Program-made: the position numbers and the translations under genes | Assembly: GCF_011769525.1 (NCBI RefSeq) | Contig: NZ_CP050440.1 | Span: forward strand, 931,501-995,500 | Origin: Tolypothrix sp. PCC 7910 | GTDB lineage: Bacteria; Cyanobacteriota; Cyanobacteriia; Cyanobacteriales; Nostocaceae | Length of the DNA: 64,000 nucleotides | Reading direction: 5' to 3' | The notes under the pieces: model-generated | What the model was told of the DNA's origin: nothing | Database searches by the model: none | The model's input: only the letters and a program-made list of their open reading frames with translations | Shown here: positions 8,533 to 20,510 of the stretch, one piece after another | Position numbering within the stretch: the first letter of the stretch is position 1 | Layout: the number at the start of each line of letters is the position of its first letter

Positions 8533-8575
8533 TGCTGTTATGGCATAGGTGTTTACCATTAGAAGCAAAGTATTT

Positions 8576-9658
8576 ATGTTGTCTGAGCGCTTTCCATCTC
8601 GAATATTAAACATTTTTCTCCGTTTTTTCCAGAACTTTCAGCACAGAAGAATTCGGATTTTTTCCTTACTGTTTGCAGTTGGGCTTGGTTTAGTTTTATT
8701 TGTGTCTGCTTGTTCTTCTAGCACAACGCAGCAAGCAACAACAACACCCACAGAACAGGCAACATCAACACCTAATCAAAGTCCAGCAGTTAGCACTAAT
8801 ACAATTAGAATCGGATTTCAGAAAGCCGGGACTATTTTAAATGCATTGAAAACCAAAGGCCATTTAGAAAAAGCTTTGGCGGCTTCTGGTGCTTCTGTTA
8901 CCTGGAGTGAATTTCCATCAGGCCCGCCAATGTTAGAAGCTATCAACTCCGGTAGTATAGACTTCGGCTATACAGGGGAATCACCACCAATATTTGCCCA
9001 AGCCGCAGGGACACCTTTAGTTTATGTAGCTTACGATCCTTGGAGTACGAAAGCTGAAGCTATCCTTGTTCACAAAGATTCACCAATTAAAACAGTGGCG
9101 GATCTCAAAGGTAAAAAAGTCGCTTTCGCTAAAGGTTCAAACACGAACTACCTAATAGTGAAAGCCCTAGAAAAAGCAGGACTGCAATATACTGACATCC
9201 AAGCAGTTACCCTCCAACCTGCTGATGGACGTGCTGCGTTTGAAGGTAAAAACGTTGATGCTTGGGCAATTTGGGATCCTTATTTAGCTTTGGCAGAAAA
9301 AGCTACAGGCGCACGCACTTTAACCGATGCAACCGGATTAGCGCCGAATCGTGGTTATTATTTGGCTGCTAAATCTTTTGTAGATGCTCATACTGATACT
9401 TTGAAAATAGTTTTAGATGAAGTGAAAAAGACTAGCGACTGGGCCAAGAATAATCCTAGTGAAGTGGCTAAATTTCTCGCGCCAGCACTAGGTATTGATG
9501 CAGCTGTTTTAGAGGTAGCAGAAAAGCGGCGTGATTATGGCGTACTAACAATTACCGATGAAGTAATTGCAAAACAGCAAGAGATTGCTGATGCATTCTA
9601 CAAAATCAAACTTATACCGAAGCAAATTAATGTTAAGGACATAGTTTGGCGTAATTAG
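8576..9658 (+). CDS. SsuA/TauA-like ABC-transporter substrate-binding lipoprotein (#1)
   Basis: A 360-residue periplasmic binding protein of the NMT1/SsuA class, which captures aliphatic sulfonates, taurine or similar anions. A lipobox FVSAC places the lipidated Cys at 46 after a hydrophobic segment. Mature-protein hallmarks are IRIGFQKAGTILNAL, SGPPMLEAINSGSIDFGYTG, SPIKTVADLKGKKVAFAKGS and VDAWAIWDPYLALAE. Start: an upstream in-frame GTG at 8549 exists, but the ATG at 8576 gives a leader that aligns with the third SsuA-like protein of this window (62701-63795; Cys at 47). No SsuB or SsuC gene lies nearby, so it must use a remote permease. It heads the rightward AprA-like cluster, and an inverted repeat precedes it. 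Confidence 0.88.
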   Translation: MLSERFPSRILNIFLRFFQNFQHRRIRIFSLLFAVGLGLVLFVSACSSSTTQQATTTPTEQATSTPNQSPAVSTNTIRIGFQKAGTILNALKTKGHLEKALAASGASVTWSEFPSGPPMLEAINSGSIDFGYTGESPPIFAQAAGTPLVYVAYDPWSTKAEAILVHKDSPIKTVADLKGKKVAFAKGSNTNYLIVKALEKAGLQYTDIQAVTLQPADGRAAFEGKNVDAWAIWDPYLALAEKATGARTLTDATGLAPNRGYYLAAKSFVDAHTDTLKIVLDEVKKTSDWAKNNPSEVAKFLAPALGIDAAVLEVAEKRRDYGVLTITDEVIAKQQEIADAFYKIKLIPKQINVKDIVWRN

Positions 9659-9660
9659 GG

Positions 9661-9785
9661 AATGGGGGATGGGTAATTGGTAATTGGTAATTGGTAATTG
9701 GTAATAGAAATTTATCTCATTGTCCCTCAATCCCCGAGTCCCCAATCCCTAATCCCCAATCCCCAGTCCCCAGTCCCCATTCTCA
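9661..9785. repeat. Heptad tandem repeats (STRR)
   Basis: Two arrays: TAATTGG/GGTAATT units at about 9672-9705, and C-rich heptads of the CCCCAAT / CCCCAGT type at 9724-9780. Such short tandemly repeated repetitive sequences are typical of heterocystous cyanobacteria. An open frame runs through the C-rich array into the next gene and would encode Pro-Gln-Ser-Pro peptides; it is not a credible N-terminus. Confidence 0.85.
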
Positions 9786-9799
9786 ACTCAGGTGATTAT

Positions 9800-11512
9800 A
9801 TGGAAATAACTACACAATTGATAAAAACCGATGTACTAGTGATTGGCGGTGGTACAGCGGGGACGATGGCGGGGATTAAGGCGAAACAGGCGAATCCGGC
9901 GGCAGATGTGCTGATTTTGGAGAAAGCTAATATTCGTCGGAGTGGTGCGATCGCAATGGGAATGGATGGTGTAAATACAGCCGTTATCCCTGGATACTCT
10001 ACACCAGAACAGTATGTCCGCGAGGTCACCATTGCTAATGATGGGATTCTGCATCAAAAAGCTGTCTATCAAACCGCCTTGCTAGGCTATGAAACTATTC
10101 AAGAACTAGAAAGTTGGGGTGTGAAGTTCCAAAAAGACCCCCAAGGCAATTACGATGTTAAGCAAGTGCATCGGGTAGGCAAATATGTATTGCCAATGCC
10201 CGAAGGTAAAGATTTAAAAACGATTCTTACGCGACAGGTTAAGCGACATAAAGTCAATGTTACCAATCGCGTCATGGCGACGAGGGTTTTGGTAAGAGAA
10301 GGAAGAGCGATCGGTGCGGTTGGGTTTGATGTACGCGCTGGTGATTTTGTTGTCATCCAAGCTAAAGCCGTTATTCTTTGCACAGGTGCTTGCGGAAGGT
10401 TGGGATTACCTGCATCAGGCTACCTCTACGGAACTTATGAAAACCCCACTAATGCTGGTGATGGTTACTCAATGGCTTACCATGCAGGCGCAGAGTTGAG
10501 TAATATTGAATGCTTCCAAATTAATCCCTTAATTAAAGACTACAACGGCCCAGCTTGCGCTTATGTTGCCGGGCCTTTTGGCGCATATACCGCCAACGCT
10601 GAAGGACACCGCTTCATTAATTGTGATTATTGGAGTGGGCAAATGATGCTAGAAATTTGGAAGGAATTGAACTCTGGTAAAGGGCCAATTCAGTTGAAAA
10701 TGACGCATTTAGATGAAGACACAATTTCTGAAATTGAGTCTATCTTATGGTCAAATGAAAGACCAAGTCGCGGAAGGTTTCACGAAGGTAGAGGCGAGAA
10801 CTACCGCACTCATGGAATTGAGATGAATATCTCGGAAATTGGCTTATGTAGCGGACATAGTGCTTCTGGTGTGTGGGTGAATGAAAAAGCAGAAACCACA
10901 GTACCAGGATTGTATGCGGCTGGAGATATGGCCAGTGTTCCTCATAATTATATGATTGGGGCTTTTGTATATGGTCGTTTAGCTGGAACTCATGCAATTG
11001 ATTACATCAAAGATTTGGAACATTTAGAACCTGATACTGAATTTTTAGATGCAGAAAAAGCGAGAATGTATGCCCCATTAAATCAACCTAATGGTATTCC
11101 CCATACTCAGGTTGAATATAAGTTGCGGCGACTAGTAAACGATTATTTACAACCGCCAAAATCAAATTACAAAATGGAGATTGGGCTGAATAGTTTTGTT
11201 CGGTATCATGATGCTCTAGCTCAAATGGGAGCGCGCGATCCGCATGAACTAATGCGCTGTATGGAAGTGCATTTTATTAGAGATTGTGCAGAGATGGCTG
11301 CAAGAGCATCTTTATATCGTCGCGAAAGTCGCTGGGGACTTTATCACTATCATTTAGATTTTCCTGAGAAGAATAATCAAGAGTGGTTTTGTCATGTGAA
11401 TTTGAAGAAAAATAAAGCCGGGGAAATGGTGTTATTTAAGCGTGCTGTTGAACCTTATATTGTGGATGTGGATTTAGGAAGAGAGGTTTATGATGTGGCG
11501 GTGAAATCATGA
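9800..11512 (+). CDS. AprA-like FAD flavoprotein (fumarate reductase/APS reductase family)
   Basis: A 570-residue member of the SdhA/FrdA/AprA flavoprotein family. FAD-binding LVIGGGTAGTMAGIKAKQ is at ~13-30. The phrase ILEKANIRRSGAIAMGMDG and the late ESRWGLYHYHLDFP recall AprA, the catalytic subunit of dissimilatory adenylylsulfate reductase, more than SdhA. AAGDMASVPHNYMIGAFV is the conserved late FAD contact. The protein is shorter than AprA (~650). Start: ATG at 9800 with CAGGTG before it; earlier codons would translate a tandem repeat. The partner is probably the AprB-like ferredoxin at 13018, three genes on. The substrate is unknown; sulfite/APS chemistry or an organosulfur redox step is inferred from context. 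Confidence 0.8.
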   Translation: MEITTQLIKTDVLVIGGGTAGTMAGIKAKQANPAADVLILEKANIRRSGAIAMGMDGVNTAVIPGYSTPEQYVREVTIANDGILHQKAVYQTALLGYETIQELESWGVKFQKDPQGNYDVKQVHRVGKYVLPMPEGKDLKTILTRQVKRHKVNVTNRVMATRVLVREGRAIGAVGFDVRAGDFVVIQAKAVILCTGACGRLGLPASGYLYGTYENPTNAGDGYSMAYHAGAELSNIECFQINPLIKDYNGPACAYVAGPFGAYTANAEGHRFINCDYWSGQMMLEIWKELNSGKGPIQLKMTHLDEDTISEIESILWSNERPSRGRFHEGRGENYRTHGIEMNISEIGLCSGHSASGVWVNEKAETTVPGLYAAGDMASVPHNYMIGAFVYGRLAGTHAIDYIKDLEHLEPDTEFLDAEKARMYAPLNQPNGIPHTQVEYKLRRLVNDYLQPPKSNYKMEIGLNSFVRYHDALAQMGARDPHELMRCMEVHFIRDCAEMAARASLYRRESRWGLYHYHLDFPEKNNQEWFCHVNLKKNKAGEMVLFKRAVEPYIVDVDLGREVYDVAVKS

Positions 11513-11537
11513 ATAATTTACAGAAAATAAATTACTA

Positions 11538-11990
11538 ATGACTGAAGATAAAATCCAAATTAGATTGGCTAAAGATAAAGATGCAGAGCGAATTGCAATT
11601 CTTTGTGAGCAGTTAGAATATTCTACTACGCTGCAGCAAATCGAGCAACGCCTTGTGAAAATTCAAGATAATAAAAGTCATGTTATTTATGTTGCTACTT
11701 TAGCAAACGATTATGTTGTAGGTTGGGCACATGCTCATACTTGTGATTTGATAATTATTCCCACTCAAGCATTACTTTTTGGTTTGGTGGTAGATAAAGA
11801 TTATCGTCATGGAGGAATTGGAAGTAAATTAATGCATTATATTGAGGAGTGGGCTGGTCTAGTTGGATGCGAGGGGATTATTCTACGTTCTAATATTAAA
11901 CGCAAAGAGGCTCACATTTTTTATGAAAAAATTGGCTACACGAATACTAAACAGTCGATGACTTTTTATAAGAAAATTGTTTCAGAATAG
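11538..11990 (+). CDS. GNAT-family N-acetyltransferase
   Basis: A 150-residue GNAT protein. Motif A, which binds acetyl-CoA pyrophosphate, is seen as GLVVDKDYRHGGIGSKLMHYIEEWA, with motif B at LRSNIKRKEAHIFYEKIGYTNTKQSMTFYKK. The full length equals a single GNAT domain. Lies 25 bases after the AprA-like gene on the same strand, so probably co-transcribed. It may acetylate a small amine or amino acid. Acetylation of S-substituted cysteines before flavin-dependent C-S cleavage is known in Bacillus (YxeL/SndB with YxeK), which is a possible but unproven parallel. Confidence 0.82.
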   Translation: MTEDKIQIRLAKDKDAERIAILCEQLEYSTTLQQIEQRLVKIQDNKSHVIYVATLANDYVVGWAHAHTCDLIIIPTQALLFGLVVDKDYRHGGIGSKLMHYIEEWAGLVGCEGIILRSNIKRKEAHIFYEKIGYTNTKQSMTFYKKIVSE

Positions 11991-12067
11991 TTTAGGCTGA
12001 ATAGAAGAAATATATGCCGCAATTTTTATTTATATAGAATATAAGTTTTGAAAGCTAAATTATCATA

Positions 12068-12922
12068 ATGGCACAGCAATTTTGTTGCCAATTTGCCAGA
12101 TTACCTAAGTTAATTAATCTCAAAAAATCCGGTGTGCAAATGCCTCTTTATGATTCCATTGGCAAACAATATACAACAACTCGCATCCCTGACTATCGCA
12201 TTGTGCAGAAGATAATCGACTTACTCAATTTACCACCAGGTAGTCTGATTGCTGATATTGGCGCGGGAACTGGTGGTTATTCACAGGCGCTAGCTAATCG
12301 GGGATTTTCTGTTTATGCAGTTGAACCATCATCGGTAATGCGTCAACAAGCATCAGAACATCCACAAGTGCAATGGTTTAATAGCTATGCAGAAGCTTTA
12401 CCTTTAGCCGATAAATCTGTTGATGCAGCAATCAGTATTTTGACAATTCATCATTTTTCGGGTTTAGAGAAAGCCTTCCGAGAAATGCACCGGATTATTC
12501 AGGATGGGCCAATTATATTGCTAAGTTTTGATATTAGATTTGCTCAAAGAATATGGTTATATGATTATTTTCCTTGGATGTGGGAAGATGCATTAAAATT
12601 TCTCCCACTGCATGAAATTACCAGTTTAATTGAGCAGAATACTCAAAGAAAAATTGAAGTCATACCTTTGATGTTACCTGACGATTTATCTGATTTATTT
12701 GCCGCAGCTGCTTGGAGACGTCCCCAGTTATATCTTCAACCAGAAGTGCGTGCGGGAATATCTTCTTTTGCTTTAGGTAATCCTGATTTAATTACATCTG
12801 GTATTACATCTCTAGCAGCAGATTTAAGTAGTGGTAAATGGGATGCAAAGTATGGAGATATTCGCCAGGTAATAGAAATTGATGCTGGTTATCGTTTTTT
12901 GAAAGCAACGATTGTCAACTAA
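12068..12922 (+). CDS. Class I SAM-dependent methyltransferase
   Basis: A 284-residue methyltransferase of the Methyltransf_11 type. Motif I is LIADIGAGTGGYSQALANRGF, followed by VYAVEPSSVM and the post-motif SVDAAISILTIHHFSGLEKAF. The family-like sequence begins at Met25 (MPLYDSIGKQY; ATG at 12140), and neither start has a strong ribosome site, so the true protein may be 260 residues. The C-terminal third has no recognised domain. Sits inside the AprA/ferredoxin cluster on the same strand; substrate unknown. A thiol, sulfide or carboxyl acceptor are all possible. Confidence 0.78.
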   Translation: MAQQFCCQFARLPKLINLKKSGVQMPLYDSIGKQYTTTRIPDYRIVQKIIDLLNLPPGSLIADIGAGTGGYSQALANRGFSVYAVEPSSVMRQQASEHPQVQWFNSYAEALPLADKSVDAAISILTIHHFSGLEKAFREMHRIIQDGPIILLSFDIRFAQRIWLYDYFPWMWEDALKFLPLHEITSLIEQNTQRKIEVIPLMLPDDLSDLFAAAAWRRPQLYLQPEVRAGISSFALGNPDLITSGITSLAADLSSGKWDAKYGDIRQVIEIDAGYRFLKATIVN

Positions 12923-12954
12923 AAATATCACACATAAATTCTTTGTGAAATATT

Positions 12955-12977
12955 AATCATACTGTAGGGTGGGCATT
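12955..12977 (+). repeat. Left arm of a 23-nt inverted repeat flanking the ferredoxin gene
   Basis: AATCATACTGTAGGGTGGGC followed by ATT. It pairs with 13294-13316 on the other side of the ferredoxin gene in inverted orientation, with 22 of 23 bases matching. The core GTAGGGTGGGCAATGCCC type also occurs as a tight palindrome at 16831-16847, so it belongs to a dispersed repeat family. Confidence 0.8.
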
Positions 12978-13017
12978 GCTGATATGACTAAGATACTAAC
13001 AATTACAGAGGTACCAG

Positions 13018-13245
13018 ATGGCTTTAACTAATCAAAGAGTAGATGTTCCCGTGATTGTGGACGAGTCTAAATGTTTAGAAAAATGTCGGGTTTGTATTGA
13101 AGTTTGTCCGCTTGATGTACTAGCCAAAAATCCGGAGACTGGCAAAGCATATATGAAATATGACGAATGTTGGTTTTGTCTTCCTTGTGAAAGGGAATGT
13201 CCAACAAATGCCATTAAGGTGCAAATTCCTTTTTTATTAAGGTAA
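13018..13245 (+). CDS. AprB-like 2x[4Fe-4S] ferredoxin
   Basis: A 75-residue dicluster ferredoxin. Cluster-binding cysteines are 19, 23, 26, 30 (CLEKCRVCIEVCP) and 51, 54, 57, 61 (CWFCLPCERECP). The CWxCxxCxxxCP arrangement, with Trp right after Cys51, is characteristic of AprB, the electron-carrying subunit of adenylylsulfate reductase. The C-terminal tail of true AprB is missing. It is the likely electron partner of the AprA-like flavoprotein at 9800. The start ATG has AGAGG 7 bases upstream. Its stand-alone position between two inverted-repeat arms, and its separation from the flavoprotein by two genes, are unusual for such a pair. Confidence 0.88.
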   Translation: MALTNQRVDVPVIVDESKCLEKCRVCIEVCPLDVLAKNPETGKAYMKYDECWFCLPCERECPTNAIKVQIPFLLR

Positions 13246-13293
13246 GGAAATAGTTTTAACATAATTGGGACATCATGCCCAATTGTTAATAGT

Positions 13294-13316
13294 AATGCCC
13301 ACCCTTCAGTATGATT
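13294..13316 (-). repeat. Right arm of the 23-nt inverted repeat
   Basis: AATGCCCACCCTTCAGTATG followed by ATT, the inverted partner of 12955-12977 with a single mismatch. It ends 61 bases before the ArgJ-like start codon. Together the arms bracket a 316-base segment containing only the ferredoxin gene. Confidence 0.8.
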
Positions 13317-13377
13317 AGTGCTTCACTCAACTTCAACTATAATCAAATTACGCAATTATAGGAGTTTTATATTAAAA

Positions 13378-14541
13378 ATGTCCTTAACTCCATCTTTAAC
13401 TCCGCAAGGATTTCAGACTTTTATTACTAACTTAGGTATCAAAGACTCCACCGATGATTTTGTATTGATTAAATCTAATGTTCCCTGTATTGCTGATGGA
13501 GTATTTACACAAAGTCTTTTTGCTGGGCCAAGTGTAACTATTAGCCGCCGCAACTTGAAAGATTATCAAGCACAGGGAATTGTTGTGATCTCTAAAAATG
13601 CCAATGTAGCTAATGGTGCTATTGGTAAGGCTGATGCAGAAGAAGTTATTCAAATTGTCGCCACTGAAACTGGCATTTCTCCAGATAATCTTGTCATAGC
13701 TTCTACAGGCGTAATTGGTAGACGTTACCCTATAGAAAAAATTCGCTCTGGATTGTTAGAAATTGGCAAGAAATTAACTACGGCTAATTTTAATTTGGCA
13801 GCACGCGGTATTATGACAACCGATACTGTACCAAAGCTAGCGGCGCGACAAGTTGGAAATGCCAAACTTGTAGGAATTGCTAAAGGCGTAGGGATGATTG
13901 AGCCGAATATGGCAACAATGCTAGCTTTCTTTTTTACAGATGCAGCGCTTTCTGCTGATGTGTTACGTTCAGTTTTTCGTTCTATAGTAGATAAAACATT
14001 CAATTGTTTAAGTGTTGATACAGATACTTCTACTAGTGATACTGCCATCATTTTAGCTAATGGTTTAGCAGGTGCAGTTTCCGAGTCAGAATTTGCTATT
14101 GCACTACAAGAAATATCTCATGAATTAGTTTTGACAATAGCGCGAGATGGCGAAGGCGCTACTAAGGTGATTGAAGTAACTGTAGATTCAGCCTTGAATT
14201 ATGCACAAGCTAAAAAAGTTGCGAAAGCTATCGTCAATTCCCCTTTGGTGAAAACTGCTGTTTATGGTGCAGATCCAAATTGGGGAAGAATAGCAATGGC
14301 TATAGGTAAATGTGAGGATGAACTGACAATAAATCCAGAAAATATTGGAATTCGGTTTGATAATATTCAAGTCTATCCGAATGTTTTAAATGAGGATAAT
14401 TTGGAAGCATTAAGGCAAGTGATGTCCCAAGATAAAGTAAATATTCATGTGAGCTTGAATATTGGCGAAGCTATTGCAACTGTCTGGGGTTGTGATTTGT
14501 CAGAAGGTTATGTAGAAATTAATGGTAAATACTCCACTTAA
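13378..14541 (+). CDS. argJ-like: ArgJ-family glutamate N-acetyltransferase-like (Ntn autoprocessing) enzyme
   Basis: A 387-residue ArgJ-family protein. ArgJ transfers acetyl groups between N-acetylornithine and glutamate in arginine synthesis and cuts itself into two subunits. Seen: oxyanion-hole region STGVIG (Thr110-Gly111), MTTDTVPK, and the self-cleavage site PNMATMLAF with the nucleophile Thr180. The late GADPNWGRI is also conserved. Both catalytic elements are intact, so it should mature normally. Start: a GTG at 13318 is open, but the ATG at 13378 has GGAG upstream and fits the family. Sequence is somewhat diverged from the usual cyanobacterial ArgJ. Placement between an AprB-like ferredoxin and a HEAT protein suggests a paralogue with a specialised acyl-transfer job. 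Confidence 0.85.
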   Translation: MSLTPSLTPQGFQTFITNLGIKDSTDDFVLIKSNVPCIADGVFTQSLFAGPSVTISRRNLKDYQAQGIVVISKNANVANGAIGKADAEEVIQIVATETGISPDNLVIASTGVIGRRYPIEKIRSGLLEIGKKLTTANFNLAARGIMTTDTVPKLAARQVGNAKLVGIAKGVGMIEPNMATMLAFFFTDAALSADVLRSVFRSIVDKTFNCLSVDTDTSTSDTAIILANGLAGAVSESEFAIALQEISHELVLTIARDGEGATKVIEVTVDSALNYAQAKKVAKAIVNSPLVKTAVYGADPNWGRIAMAIGKCEDELTINPENIGIRFDNIQVYPNVLNEDNLEALRQVMSQDKVNIHVSLNIGEAIATVWGCDLSEGYVEINGKYST

Positions 14542-14555
14542 TTATTATTTTTTCC

Positions 14556-15518
14556 ATGTCAACAAACATAGATTCTGAATTAAATCAATGGTTGGAAATG
14601 TTGCGATCGCCTGAAGTAAGCGATCGCTTAGTTGCAGTCAAAACCCTGCAACATTTGGGGGATGAGGGGGCGATTGATGCGCTGATTGTAGCTTTGCAAG
14701 ATGAAAGCACCGCCGTGCAAAAAATTGCTGTCACTGCACTATGGGAAATTGCCAATCCCGCCACTGTTCCAGCTTTATTACCATGTTTAGCTTCACCAGA
14801 TCCAGAAATTCGCAGTGAGGCGCTATCAGCTTTGGGTGAGTTGATATCTTCAGAAGATTTGCTATTGTTGCTAGATGCGTTACAGCAACCGAATATCAAC
14901 CTGCAACTAAATGTGTTAATTCTGTTGCGAAAGATACATGATGCTCAGTCGCTCCCGGCGGTGCTATCCTTCTTTAATTCAGAACATCCCCAACTACGAG
15001 AAGCGGCTGTTACTACTCTTAGCTATCTCAATCAAGTGCAGATATGCCCACCTGCCTTATCTTTAATCCGCGATCGCGATGACAATGTGCGTCGTGCAAC
15101 TGCGCTAACGTTAGGGCATTTGGCAGATGCAGAGATAGTAGATTTACTTAGTAACGCACTGAATCATGATACAGATTGGCAAGTACGCCGCAATGCTGCC
15201 AAATCTTTAGCACTTCATGCTGATGCCAAAATTATTCCTACTGTATTAATTGCAATGAAAGATGCACATTGGCAAGTGAGAAAATTTGCTATCCAAGTAT
15301 TACAGAAAATACCTGATATCCAGTCTTTACCTGCACTCATTGAAGCTCTAACAGATGAATATTCAGATGTGAGAAAAGAAGCTGCGATCGCTCTTGGCAA
15401 TTTGGGTAAAACTGAAGCTTTAAATGCCTTGCAGCAAGCACTAGACGATCCCGATAGAGAGGTTAGTATATACGCAAAAAAGGCAATTCAGAAAATTGGA
15501 GAGGGAACGAGAACATAA
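14556..15518 (+). CDS. HEAT-repeat protein
   Basis: A 320-residue all-helical protein made of about nine to ten HEAT/PBS-lyase-type repeats; typical units are DRLVAVKTLQHLGDEGAIDA, PEIRSEALSALGEL and SDVRKEAAIALGNLGKTEAL. It has no signal peptide and no catalytic motif. HEAT proteins of this style act as scaffolds or, in phycobilisome biology, as chromophore lyases (CpcE-like). Starting 14 bases after the ArgJ-like gene, it is almost certainly co-transcribed with it, so a scaffold or maturation role for the flavoprotein/ferredoxin/acyltransferase set is more likely than a bilin lyase role. This is inference. Confidence 0.85.
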   Translation: MSTNIDSELNQWLEMLRSPEVSDRLVAVKTLQHLGDEGAIDALIVALQDESTAVQKIAVTALWEIANPATVPALLPCLASPDPEIRSEALSALGELISSEDLLLLLDALQQPNINLQLNVLILLRKIHDAQSLPAVLSFFNSEHPQLREAAVTTLSYLNQVQICPPALSLIRDRDDNVRRATALTLGHLADAEIVDLLSNALNHDTDWQVRRNAAKSLALHADAKIIPTVLIAMKDAHWQVRKFAIQVLQKIPDIQSLPALIEALTDEYSDVRKEAAIALGNLGKTEALNALQQALDDPDREVSIYAKKAIQKIGEGTRT

Positions 15519-15768: not shown

Positions 15769-16572
15769 TTAAGCTGAAGGCGTTAATAAATCAATTGTAC
15801 TAGCTGGCTGATTTGATGTTTGTGATTTTCGTAATGTAACAAATGCAAGGATAGCAACTACTGTCAAGTAAATACGTTGTAACCAGACATTGCTCAATTT
15901 GAGAGTTAAACGTCCGCCAATTATGCCACCTATAAACATAGTAGTGCCAAGAATTATTCCTAAGTCGTAATTGACTATTCCTTGCTGCAAAAAAATTATA
16001 GTGGCGATTAAAGAAGAAAATATATTGATAAATTTAGTAGTTGCGATCGCCTCTACAAATATCATGCGAAATAGCATCACATAAGCTGCTGTGAGGAGAG
16101 TGACATAACCACCGCTAAAAAAACCTCCATAAATACCAAGAATAAACGTCACTACATAGCCAGAAATTTCTGCAATATGCGGAGGGATAAGTTGAGATGG
16201 GCTAACTCCAGCATGACGATTAATTACTGATAAGATAGCTACTATTATCATTGAAATAGAAATTATCAATGGCATTGATTTAGAAGGCAAAATCAGTACC
16301 AATAATGCTCCTAAAAATGAACCGACTATAGTTAATAAAGTTAGTAATGGTAAGCGTATAGGGTTAATAATTTTCTTACCCATAAAAGGTAATGTTCCGC
16401 CTATACTCATTAAAGTTAATGCAAACATATTGGTAGCGATCGCAGTTCGGGGTTCTATGCCAAATTCCAGCATTATAGGCACAGTAATCAGCGATGTGCT
16501 ACCAGCAATCACGCTAACAATGCTGGCAAAGAAAAATATTCCAGCCAGCATAATTATTTGCAAAATATCCAC
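15769..16572 (-). CDS. TauE/SafE-family anion (sulfite/organosulfonate) permease (#1)
   Basis: A 267-residue membrane protein with about eight hydrophobic helices in two repeated halves. The family signature GSTSLITVPIMLEFGIEPRTAIATNMFAL is seen early (~25-53), and its second-half echo is GGFFSGGYVTLLTAAYVMLFRM. TauE/SafE proteins export sulfite, sulfoacetate or related anions during taurine and sulfonate breakdown. Last gene of the leftward run, though 500 bases separate it from its neighbour, so it may have its own promoter. A second family member is at 19734. Confidence 0.85.
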   Translation of the reverse strand: MDILQIIMLAGIFFFASIVSVIAGSTSLITVPIMLEFGIEPRTAIATNMFALTLMSIGGTLPFMGKKIINPIRLPLLTLLTIVGSFLGALLVLILPSKSMPLIISISMIIVAILSVINRHAGVSPSQLIPPHIAEISGYVVTFILGIYGGFFSGGYVTLLTAAYVMLFRMIFVEAIATTKFINIFSSLIATIIFLQQGIVNYDLGIILGTTMFIGGIIGGRLTLKLSNVWLQRIYLTVVAILAFVTLRKSQTSNQPASTIDLLTPSA

Positions 16573-16830: not shown

Positions 16831-16847
16831 GGTGGGCAATGCCCACC
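16831..16847. repeat. Palindrome GGTGGGCAATGCCCACC
   Basis: Perfect 8-bp arms around one base, 9 bases beyond the stop of the methyltransferase remnant on the minus strand. Same core as the arms around the ferredoxin gene (12955, 13294). Confidence 0.65.
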
Positions 16848-19733: not shown

Positions 19734-20510
19734 CTAGCCGTGAACAAAAAAGTAGATAGTCATACTGAAGGCAACAAAGATGACAAATTTACGAATTAAT
19801 TGGGGTTTTAATTTACGAGCATAATGGGCGCTGAGATATCCGCCTAAAGAACCACCCACAGCCATTAAAATCGCTTGTTCCCAAGCAATTACACCTGCAA
19901 AAATAAAAGGAATAATGGCAATTCCATTAATACAACTGCCTAAAAATGCTTTAAAAGCGTTAATTGTATGAATATTTTTGATACCCAAAAATGATAGGGT
20001 TGCCAACATTAAAATTCCTAAACCTGCACCGAAAAAACCGCCATAGATAGCGATCGCTAATTGTGCCAAGGCAAGGTTAAATATAGGTACAGACTCCGGC
20101 GTTGACTTCTGACTCTGAAGCTGCAACCATCCTCTGAGACTGTCGCCAAAGGTAAATACTAGGGTTGCTGATAGTAGTAGATAGGGGATGAGCTTTCTAA
20201 ATACATCAGCAGAGGTATAGAGTAAAGCTAAAGAGCCAATAATTCCACCGAATAAACTTATGCCACATAACAGCAAAAAAACCTGCCGTTTAATCCCCAA
20301 ATCTTTACGGTAGGCTCCAGCACTAGCCAAAGCAGCCACCCAAATAGCGGTATTATTTGTAGCATTTGCAATAATTGGCGGTACTCCTGTAAAAATCAGC
20401 GCTGGAAACGTAATAAAACTTCCACCACCTGCAACAGCATTCAACCCACCTGCAATGAAAGCGGTGCTGAATAAAAGTAAGGTATGGAGAATAGTTAAAG
20501 ATGGTGGCAT
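19734..20510 (-). CDS. TauE/SafE-family anion permease (#2)
   Basis: A 258-residue membrane protein with seven or eight helices. The family repeat appears as GGLNAVAGGGSFITFPALIFTGVPP and again as GGFFGAGLGILMLATLSFLG. It belongs to the TauE/SafE/YfcA group. In sulfonate catabolism such proteins are proposed to export sulfite produced by TauD or flavin monooxygenases, which fits this operon well. Nine bases separate it from the HAD phosphatase gene, so the two are co-transcribed. The C-terminal LKPQLIRKFVIFVAFSMT is also family-like. Confidence 0.87.
   Translation of the reverse strand: MPPSLTILHTLLLFSTAFIAGGLNAVAGGGSFITFPALIFTGVPPIIANATNNTAIWVAALASAGAYRKDLGIKRQVFLLLCGISLFGGIIGSLALLYTSADVFRKLIPYLLLSATLVFTFGDSLRGWLQLQSQKSTPESVPIFNLALAQLAIAIYGGFFGAGLGILMLATLSFLGIKNIHTINAFKAFLGSCINGIAIIPFIFAGVIAWEQAILMAVGGSLGGYLSAHYARKLKPQLIRKFVIFVAFSMTIYFFVHG

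Follow-up and report, generated by a model that had tools for sequence, protein, structure and literature searches.

Dissimilatory adenosine 5'-phosphosulfate (APS) reductase, AprAB, is among the described enzymes closest to a flavoprotein-ferredoxin pair encoded by a gene cluster of the cyanobacterium Tolypothrix sp. PCC 7910. The cluster occupies positions 8549..15518 of the 64,000-nucleotide stretch analyzed in this study (NZ_CP050440.1, positions 931,501 to 995,500; hereafter the window). AprAB and the window pair share the fold, the combination of an alpha flavoprotein with a beta subunit carrying two [4Fe-4S] clusters, the tryptophan of the beta-subunit CWxC motif, and a histidine and an asparagine column. 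They differ in that the window flavoprotein is about 28% identical to AprA with nucleotide-site residues replaced, the window beta protein is without the C-terminal tail, and a HEAT-repeat protein and an importer are added. The 3'-phosphoadenosine 5'-phosphosulfate (PAPS) reductase of Methanothermococcus thermolithotrophicus (MtPAPSR; 8A8O, PMC10322725) is the nearest solved structure, with an assimilatory role and a short beta subunit (104 amino acids), but identity is about 30%, Arg121, Ser122, Trp206 and Tyr207 are all replaced and the window flavoprotein belongs to a separate clade.

The SsuABCDE and TauABCD systems resemble the cluster in SsuA-type uptake, and most of the cyanobacterial genomes with the cluster's enzyme also have SsuD; however, SsuD is a flavin mononucleotide monooxygenase and TauD a dioxygenase (PMC6906117), whereas the window enzyme, an Fe-S flavoprotein, belongs to a different superfamily. 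The flavoprotein was presented in the original prediction as part of a possible new module. It is not a new family, since NCBIfam already holds PRK08275, of which the window protein is a member, and PRK13800, in which a flavoprotein of this kind is joined to HEAT repeats. Both are catalogued as fumarate reductase/succinate dehydrogenase flavoprotein subunit without a tested function, and the models include no ferredoxin partner, importer or sulfur context. A literature search found no description of the module in the titles and abstract openings among the matches listed, subscription papers and preprints being outside its scope, and term look-ups in the main texts of PMC8557817, PMC7661421, PMC11852219 and PMC2996968 found no mention of fumarate reductase.

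Results from this study showed that the flavoprotein and ferredoxin are an alpha/beta pair of the AprAB type whose substrate pocket differs. The pair occurs in a sulfonate and sulfur-limitation setting and is nearly always accompanied by the HEAT gene where enough contig is available. We give an even chance to the reading that the cluster is the cyanobacterial copy of a widespread sulfur-scavenging module, in which sulfite would be released reductively from an imported sulfonate-type anion. The seven same-strand genes predicted for the locus are all present on one strand; they are listed here with the convergent neighbour.

8549..9658, + strand: SsuA-family substrate-binding lipoprotein (TIGR01728, 2x26), with a lipobox-like VSAC by our own reading
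9800..11512, + strand: flavin adenine dinucleotide (FAD) flavoprotein of the PRK08275 family (NF006131 score, tree, active-site columns, AlphaFold2 model)
11538..11990, + strand: GNAT acetyltransferase (Pfam PF00583), lineage-limited accessory
12068..12922, + strand: class I S-adenosylmethionine methyltransferase (PF08241), lineage-limited accessory; possible ATG at 12140
13018..13245, + strand: 75-amino-acid two-[4Fe-4S] ferredoxin, AprB-like (Cys/Trp motifs; 3gyx_B and 8a8o_C matches), proposed beta subunit
13378..14541, + strand: ArgJ-family paralogue (TIGR00120), genus-level accessory; the open reading frame opens at 13318 with GTG
14556..15518, + strand: HEAT-repeat protein, conserved module member (74/80 loci; weak match to the NF010374 C-terminus)
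15769..16572, - strand: TauE/SafE-family permease (PF01925, 1.5e-33), convergent neighbour, possible sulfite exporter

Intergenic gaps within the cluster are 14 to 138 bases with the flavoprotein taken from 9797. The flavoprotein frame opens with TTG at 9698 and homology starts only near the ATG at 9800; the codon directly before it (9797-9799) is Tyr, and residue numbers in this study count from 9797, one residue ahead of that ATG. For the ArgJ-like gene, the ATG at 13378 is the probable start.

Linkage of the flavoprotein, ferredoxin and HEAT genes

A scan of genome contigs identified at least 593 relatives of the flavoprotein; the best 80 of these were used for the analysis, so the locus counts lean to close relatives. 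Cyanobacteria account for 43 of the 80 loci; the 37 others are almost all proteobacterial, with one from Verrucomicrobiota. All counts are raw with respect to contig ends and kinship. A neighbouring gene was counted when a tblastn match inside 7 kb covered 40% or more of the query. The ferredoxin gene was found at most 7 kb downstream of the flavoprotein gene in 75 of the 80 loci and the HEAT gene in 74, and the order flavoprotein, ferredoxin, HEAT was observed in all 74 loci with both. Among the misses, the contig ends within 0.8 kb in L075, L079, L107 and L113 and within 1.6 kb in L058; L107, the Verrucomicrobiota contig, misses the HEAT gene only. In L041, 5.3 kb downstream of the flavoprotein gene contain neither the ferredoxin nor the HEAT gene. 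The SsuA, flavoprotein, ferredoxin and HEAT genes were all present in the seven fetched genomes of the same genus; L035 and L036 of the 80 loci come from two of these genomes. The 74/80 loci together with the 7/7 same-genus genomes suggest that the linkage of the three genes is more than chance.

Plasmids revealed the same association. The flavoprotein query matched 51 plasmid records, 40 of them listed, and all 40 listed records also hold the ferredoxin; the ferredoxin query alone matched 48 records, all listed, and of the eight remaining ones three were read, each with a flavoprotein. Twelve fetched plasmid loci, chosen rather than drawn at random, contain all three genes. At the actinobacterial plasmid locus of Tsukamurella (L140) flavoprotein and HEAT repeats form one protein of 893 amino acids (1568 bits; PRK13800 cut-off 1196), situated behind genes for GntR, ferredoxin, binding protein, permease and ATPase, and at the other actinobacterial plasmid locus read, from Nonomuraea, the flavoprotein and HEAT matches fall within one open frame, likewise near the ferredoxin. 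Mirror-tree correlations, weak evidence as they stand without a housekeeping control, were 0.95 overall and 0.69 and 0.71 within groups for flavoprotein and ferredoxin, and 0.97, 0.92 and 0.80 for flavoprotein and HEAT protein.

Comparison of the accessory genes revealed a different distribution. ArgJ was found in 1 of the 80 loci, with short remnants in L035 and L049, while GNAT and methyltransferase genes were each found in 10/43 cyanobacterial and 0/37 other loci, one of the GNAT cases (L035) being an opposite-strand match of 31%. Among the seven same-genus loci, ArgJ is full length in five, a remnant in one and absent in one, the methyltransferase is present in six and GNAT in four, one of these partial. 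The two acyltransferases and the methyltransferase had been predicted to modify the substrate as integral steps; with occurrence in 1/80, 10/80 and 10/80 loci this part was not borne out, and these neighbourhood and same-genus counts rule out the three as core parts. The ArgJ paralogue itself is as predicted: it passes the TIGR00120 cut-off (358.1 bits; cut-off 298) and is the second ArgJ of the genome, which holds a stronger one elsewhere (553 bits). Methyltransferase-like genes also occur, by our own reading, in SsuA clusters of the same genome (L138, L139). Recurrence of the three genes in one lineage, together with these methyltransferase-like genes, suggests that they may be clade-level accessories.

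Comparison of the pair with APS and PAPS reductases

The flavoprotein scored 1011.8 bits against PRK08275 (NF006131; curated cut-off 587), and its match of 923 bits to PRK13800 (NF010374) covers the flavoprotein half only and is below the cut-off of 1196. Against the AprA model TIGR02061 it scored 184.5 bits, short of the cut-off of 641.75, and scores against the SdhA, FrdA and NadB models were lower than against AprA and likewise short of the family cut-offs. The nearest solved structures by sequence are 8a8o chain A, the PAPS reductase alpha subunit (E 7e-67), followed by AprA 2fja, in agreement with the AprA-like identity originally assigned. The AlphaFold2 model (mean predicted local distance difference test, pLDDT, 73.7; predicted template modelling score 0.82) matched 8a8o best, then AprA, then FrdA/SdhA.

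A maximum-likelihood tree with a midpoint root was built from 37 rows, namely the window protein, 29 of the 80 loci, three AprA proteins from two proteobacterial genomes, MtPAPSR and three paralogues from the same Tolypothrix genome; own_L003 was left out. PRK08275 formed one clade (support 95/87), with AprA and MtPAPSR together as the neighbouring group (100/100). The SdhA/NadB-like paralogues, which are the whole of the outgroup, were set apart (97/96). Identity of the flavoprotein as SdhA, FrdA or NadB is ruled out by the family cut-offs and the tree. A firm place among SdhA/NadB/LhgO-type enzymes, with the ferredoxin or ArgJ-like gene never kept nearby, had been named as the outcome that would speak against the prediction; we found instead a separate placement and a ferredoxin in 75/80 loci.

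Comparison of active-site residues with the AprA structures, as had been proposed, used 80 proteins (79 loci and the window); L113 was too short and the L125 column was disregarded. In MtPAPSR, Lys120, Arg121 and Ser122 form the nucleotide-recognition loop for the 3'-phosphate, and in AprA Gln145 contacts APS (PMC10322725). The Lys120 column contains Lys in 42 of the 80 proteins and T, S, A or R in the other 38, while the Arg121 column is Tyr and the Ser122 column Val in all 80. The columns of Trp206-Tyr207, located at the FAD, are Tyr-Glu in 80/80. Arg237, equivalent to A. fulgidus AprA Arg265, is replaced by Leu in 80/80, and His346, equivalent to AprA His398, stays His in 80/80. AprA Trp234, Arg265 and Glu141 are residues which we take to contact APS, and His398 and Asn74 residues which we take to be catalytic. 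The Gln145, Trp234 and Arg265 columns are Val, Tyr and Leu in 80/80, and in a pairwise alignment the Glu141 column is Val in the window flavoprotein; the Asn74 column (window Asn60), common to AprA and MtPAPSR, is at least 98.5% conserved. Nucleotide-side residues are thus lost throughout while the histidine is kept. Among 571 positions, 233 are at least 98.5% identical across the 80 flavoproteins. These columns, together with the overall conservation, indicate that the active site is strongly constrained and is not that of an APS or PAPS reductase, and they rule out the flavoprotein as an enzyme of that kind.

It is accordingly very improbable that the module is an assimilatory reductase of APS or PAPS like that of M. 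thermolithotrophicus, even though MtPAPSR is the nearest solved structure in both sequence and fold and one cyanobacterial ferredoxin relative (P0131) carries the source annotation adenylylsulfate reductase beta. The substrate-side residues differ in all 80 proteins, the TIGR02061 score and the separate clade point away from it, and for an enzyme acting on APS an importer would serve no obvious purpose.

Two motifs, CxxxCxxCxxxCP and CWxCxxCxxxCP, are present in the ferredoxin, and the AprB C-terminal tail is absent. All eight cysteines and the AprB-type tryptophan of CWxC, which follows the first cysteine of the second motif, are kept in 76 of 76 ferredoxins. Its best-scoring solved matches are FwdF-type polyferredoxins, with AprB (3gyx_B) and the PAPS reductase beta subunit (8a8o_C) further down, and it scored 32.4 bits against the AprB model TIGR02060, short of the cut-off of 135.65. 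The matches to 3gyx_B and 8a8o_C and the retained CWxCxxCxxxCP motif are consistent with the AprB-like ferredoxin originally described.

Importer and sulfur context

The window binding protein scored 255.1 bits against SsuA_fam TIGR01728 (cut-off 163.5), and its nearest solved structure is E. coli SsuA 2x26 (E 3e-71), as expected of the SsuA-like lipoprotein that had been predicted. A Gln, two Gly and a Ser/Thr contact the sulfonate in TauA and SsuA (PMC6906117), and by our own reading of the 2x26 alignment the window protein keeps these positions.

Analysis of the neighbourhoods revealed an SsuA-type binding protein within 7 kb in 36/43 cyanobacterial and 33/37 other loci, TauE or YeiH in 22/43 and 4/37, and an SsuD-type gene in 7/43 and 6/37. 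In these counts the SBP498, SsuA and LysR-SBP queries may cross-hit one another, FAD2 may match the flavoprotein, FdxA the ferredoxin, and SsuD other enzymes of its superfamily. GntR was found in 31 of the 37 other loci (22 by clustering). The TauE/SafE permease at 15769..16572 recurs in four of the seven same-genus stretches, which end soon after the HEAT gene, once in part. A family-2A encapsulin with its cysteine desulfurase lies within 7 kb in 8/37 other loci, accompanied in six loci by a gene that we read as serine acetyltransferase; the encapsulin and desulfurase names come from one representative each. In S. elongatus, a family-2A encapsulin with desulfurase cargo goes up in sulfur starvation (PMC8346489). 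Dolichospermum L042 carries O-acetylhomoserine sulfhydrylase (MetY) and MetX between the flavoprotein and HEAT genes. A LysR regulator with a C-terminal SsuA-type binding domain was found in 15 of 15 members of one cyanobacterial cluster (L071:196-2211 and 14 others), adjoining and divergent from the flavoprotein gene; from its domain composition this fusion looks like a cytoplasmic sensor for the same kind of ligand as the importer.

Co-occurrence with SsuD was examined in two sets that include the Tolypothrix genome, with statistics that ignore kinship. Among 58 relatives, 17 carry the flavoprotein, and SsuD at E 1e-100 was found in 15/17 versus 5/41, or by genus in 8/10 versus 5/41 (p 7e-5). 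Among 292 cyanobacteria, 12 of them module-positive, SsuD was found in 10/12 versus 16/280 (p 3e-10), and a phosphonate-type binding protein used as control in 6/12 versus 53/280 (p 0.018). The Tolypothrix genome itself carries an SsuD gene above the cut-off about 179 kb before the window, beside genes for SsuA, a permease and an ATPase; some 40 kb before the window lies an SsuD-like gene that scores below the cut-off.

Two regions about 32-185 kb before the window (L138 and L139) contain relatives of SsuA-type, permease, SsuD-type and monooxygenase-cluster genes together with genes that by our own reading are TauD-like, FMN-reductase-like and methyltransferase-like, and can be described as an organosulfur-scavenging region. 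The genome also contains two copies of a different flavoprotein and 4Fe-4S ferredoxin pair near SsuA-like genes (L136:7093-9308 and L137:4456-6650). The one flavoprotein of this second pair that was tested has no NCBIfam model above cut-off, and relatives of the pair lie near the module in L039, L042, L054, L056, L062 and L104.

Proposed reaction and role of the HEAT protein

In the proposed scheme, a sulfonate-type organosulfur anion would enter through the SsuA-type importer. In the cytoplasm, a two-subunit enzyme of APS-reductase build, with the FAD flavoprotein as alpha and the two-[4Fe-4S] ferredoxin as beta subunit, would receive low-potential electrons, which could come from photosynthetic ferredoxin in a cyanobacterium and would pass through the conserved beta-subunit tryptophan to the FAD. 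The FAD N5 would attack the sulfonyl sulfur and free sulfite, to be assimilated or exported. Chemistry through an N5-sulfite adduct has been proposed for APS and PAPS reductases (PMC10322725); sulfite as product is suggested by this analogy and is in line with the TauE/YeiH neighbours. FdxA was found in seven loci, and a 1194-amino-acid glutamate-synthase-beta-like FAD protein, below its model cut-off, in eight (both by clustering). A. caldus also has FdxA and a glutamate-synthase-beta-like protein, and a Methylobacterium plasmid has fdxA with ferredoxin-NADP reductase. Such electron-supply genes point to a reductive direction. Recruitment of an AprAB-like pair for organosulfur, as originally predicted, is partly supported, by the AprAB-like build, the departure from APS reductase in residues and scores, and the company of sulfonate-type importers and sulfur genes; the accessory modifying steps fall away.

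Within the same sulfur module, the flavoprotein may instead act oxidatively in the manner of SdhA and NadB, abstracting hydride from the position next to the sulfonate, or oxidizing some other group, to give a product that loses sulfite, and passing electrons out through the ferredoxin. The fold is also close to FrdA/SdhA, the wider FAD_binding_2 superfamily performs hydride chemistry at FAD N5, and residues conserved in this family only (Arg322, Arg325, His329, Arg332 and Arg337) could bind an anion. We regard this direction as somewhat unlikely, with the flavoprotein placed beside AprA/PAPSR rather than SdhA/NadB in a tree of long branches, and with the electron-supply genes of some loci pointing to reduction.

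Several observations weigh against reductive release of sulfite from a sulfonate. When N5 attacks at sulfur, the leaving group of an unactivated alkanesulfonate is poor; in chemical terms an activated sulfonate, an N- or S-sulfonate or a sulfate ester, with a good leaving group on the sulfur, would be an easier substrate than a plain alkanesulfonate. AprA Arg265, which we take to be an oxyanion-binding residue, corresponds to Leu in all 80 proteins. Several loops near the expected active site of the AlphaFold2 model are below 50 pLDDT, a pocket too uncertain for substrate guesses from the model, and the outgroup branches of the tree are long, with a warning from the tool of long branches meeting. 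There is no adjacent Mrp gene in the window or in its sister loci, and the nearest one in the genome, 47% identical, lies elsewhere. All three binding proteins of 450-510 amino acids tested from other loci fell short of the 163.5-bit cut-off of SsuA_fam, with scores of 136, 150 and 103 bits. Two Prochlorococcus single-cell genomes (L073 and L074) carry the module though seawater sulfate is plentiful; these modules have an importer and a LysR-like gene with a binding-protein domain, and L074 ends inside the HEAT gene.

The larger binding proteins and the marine Prochlorococcus copies would also fit a module unrelated to sulfur, in which the flavoprotein oxidizes or reduces some other anion or small molecule taken up through an SsuA/NrtA/Thi5-like importer. 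This we consider quite unlikely in view of the encapsulin-cysteine desulfurase, MetX/MetY, TauE/YeiH and SsuD associations and of the sulfonate-contact positions kept by the window binding protein.

The HEAT protein has a weak C-terminal match to NF010374 (90.9 bits), and its AlphaFold2 model (pLDDT 94.5) matched generic alpha-solenoids of many kinds in a fold search. A Mrp/NBP35-type gene lies nearby in 36/43 cyanobacterial and 0/37 other loci, a DUF971 gene in 0/43 and 25/37. Domain identities are from one representative each, and the one Mrp/NBP35-type protein tested carries a DUF59-type domain (PF01883). The HEAT protein had been predicted to be a scaffold holding the complex: it does belong to the module and may be a scaffold, but this is only one option for its role. 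As a tightly linked partner it could alternatively be a docking factor for cluster insertion, acting with Mrp/NBP35 in cyanobacteria or with DUF971 in other phyla, an alternative raised by the frequent proximity of Mrp(DUF59) or DUF971 genes. By analogy this would resemble MMS19 in the cytosolic iron-sulfur assembly (CIA) targeting complex (MMS19 HEAT, CIA2, Nbp35; PMC6211773), which the 36/43 cyanobacterial loci with a HEAT gene near a Mrp/NBP35-type ATPase recall; here the likeness comes from gene neighbourhood alone, the HEAT model having matched solenoids in general. The fuller proposal, rather unlikely in our view, is an O2-independent, ferredoxin-driven reductive desulfonation enzyme in aerobes and oxygenic phototrophs, derived from the APS-reductase fold through replacement of the nucleotide site, with an iron-sulfur subunit matured by a dedicated bacterial set of HEAT with Mrp(DUF59) or DUF971 in an MMS19-CIA2-NBP35-like manner.

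If the sulfur-scavenging reading is true, many genes annotated as fumarate reductase/succinate dehydrogenase would include sulfur-scavenging enzymes; the scope of such annotation is 6730 proteins at E 1e-30 among 8000 candidates scored, not all of this clade. The module would then be a bacterial route to sulfonate sulfur without O2, next to SsuD and TauD, and a case of the APS reductase scaffold re-aimed at organic sulfur, and would provide a bacterial setting in which to study the contribution of a HEAT protein to an Fe-S enzyme.

A GGGTGGGCATT-type repeat occurs in inverted copies at 12954-12979 and 13292-13318, on either side of the ferredoxin gene, and a third core copy is located at 16838. 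A second permease gene at 19734-20510 (- strand) has a weak PRK10621 match, as does the TauE-like gene at 15769-16572.

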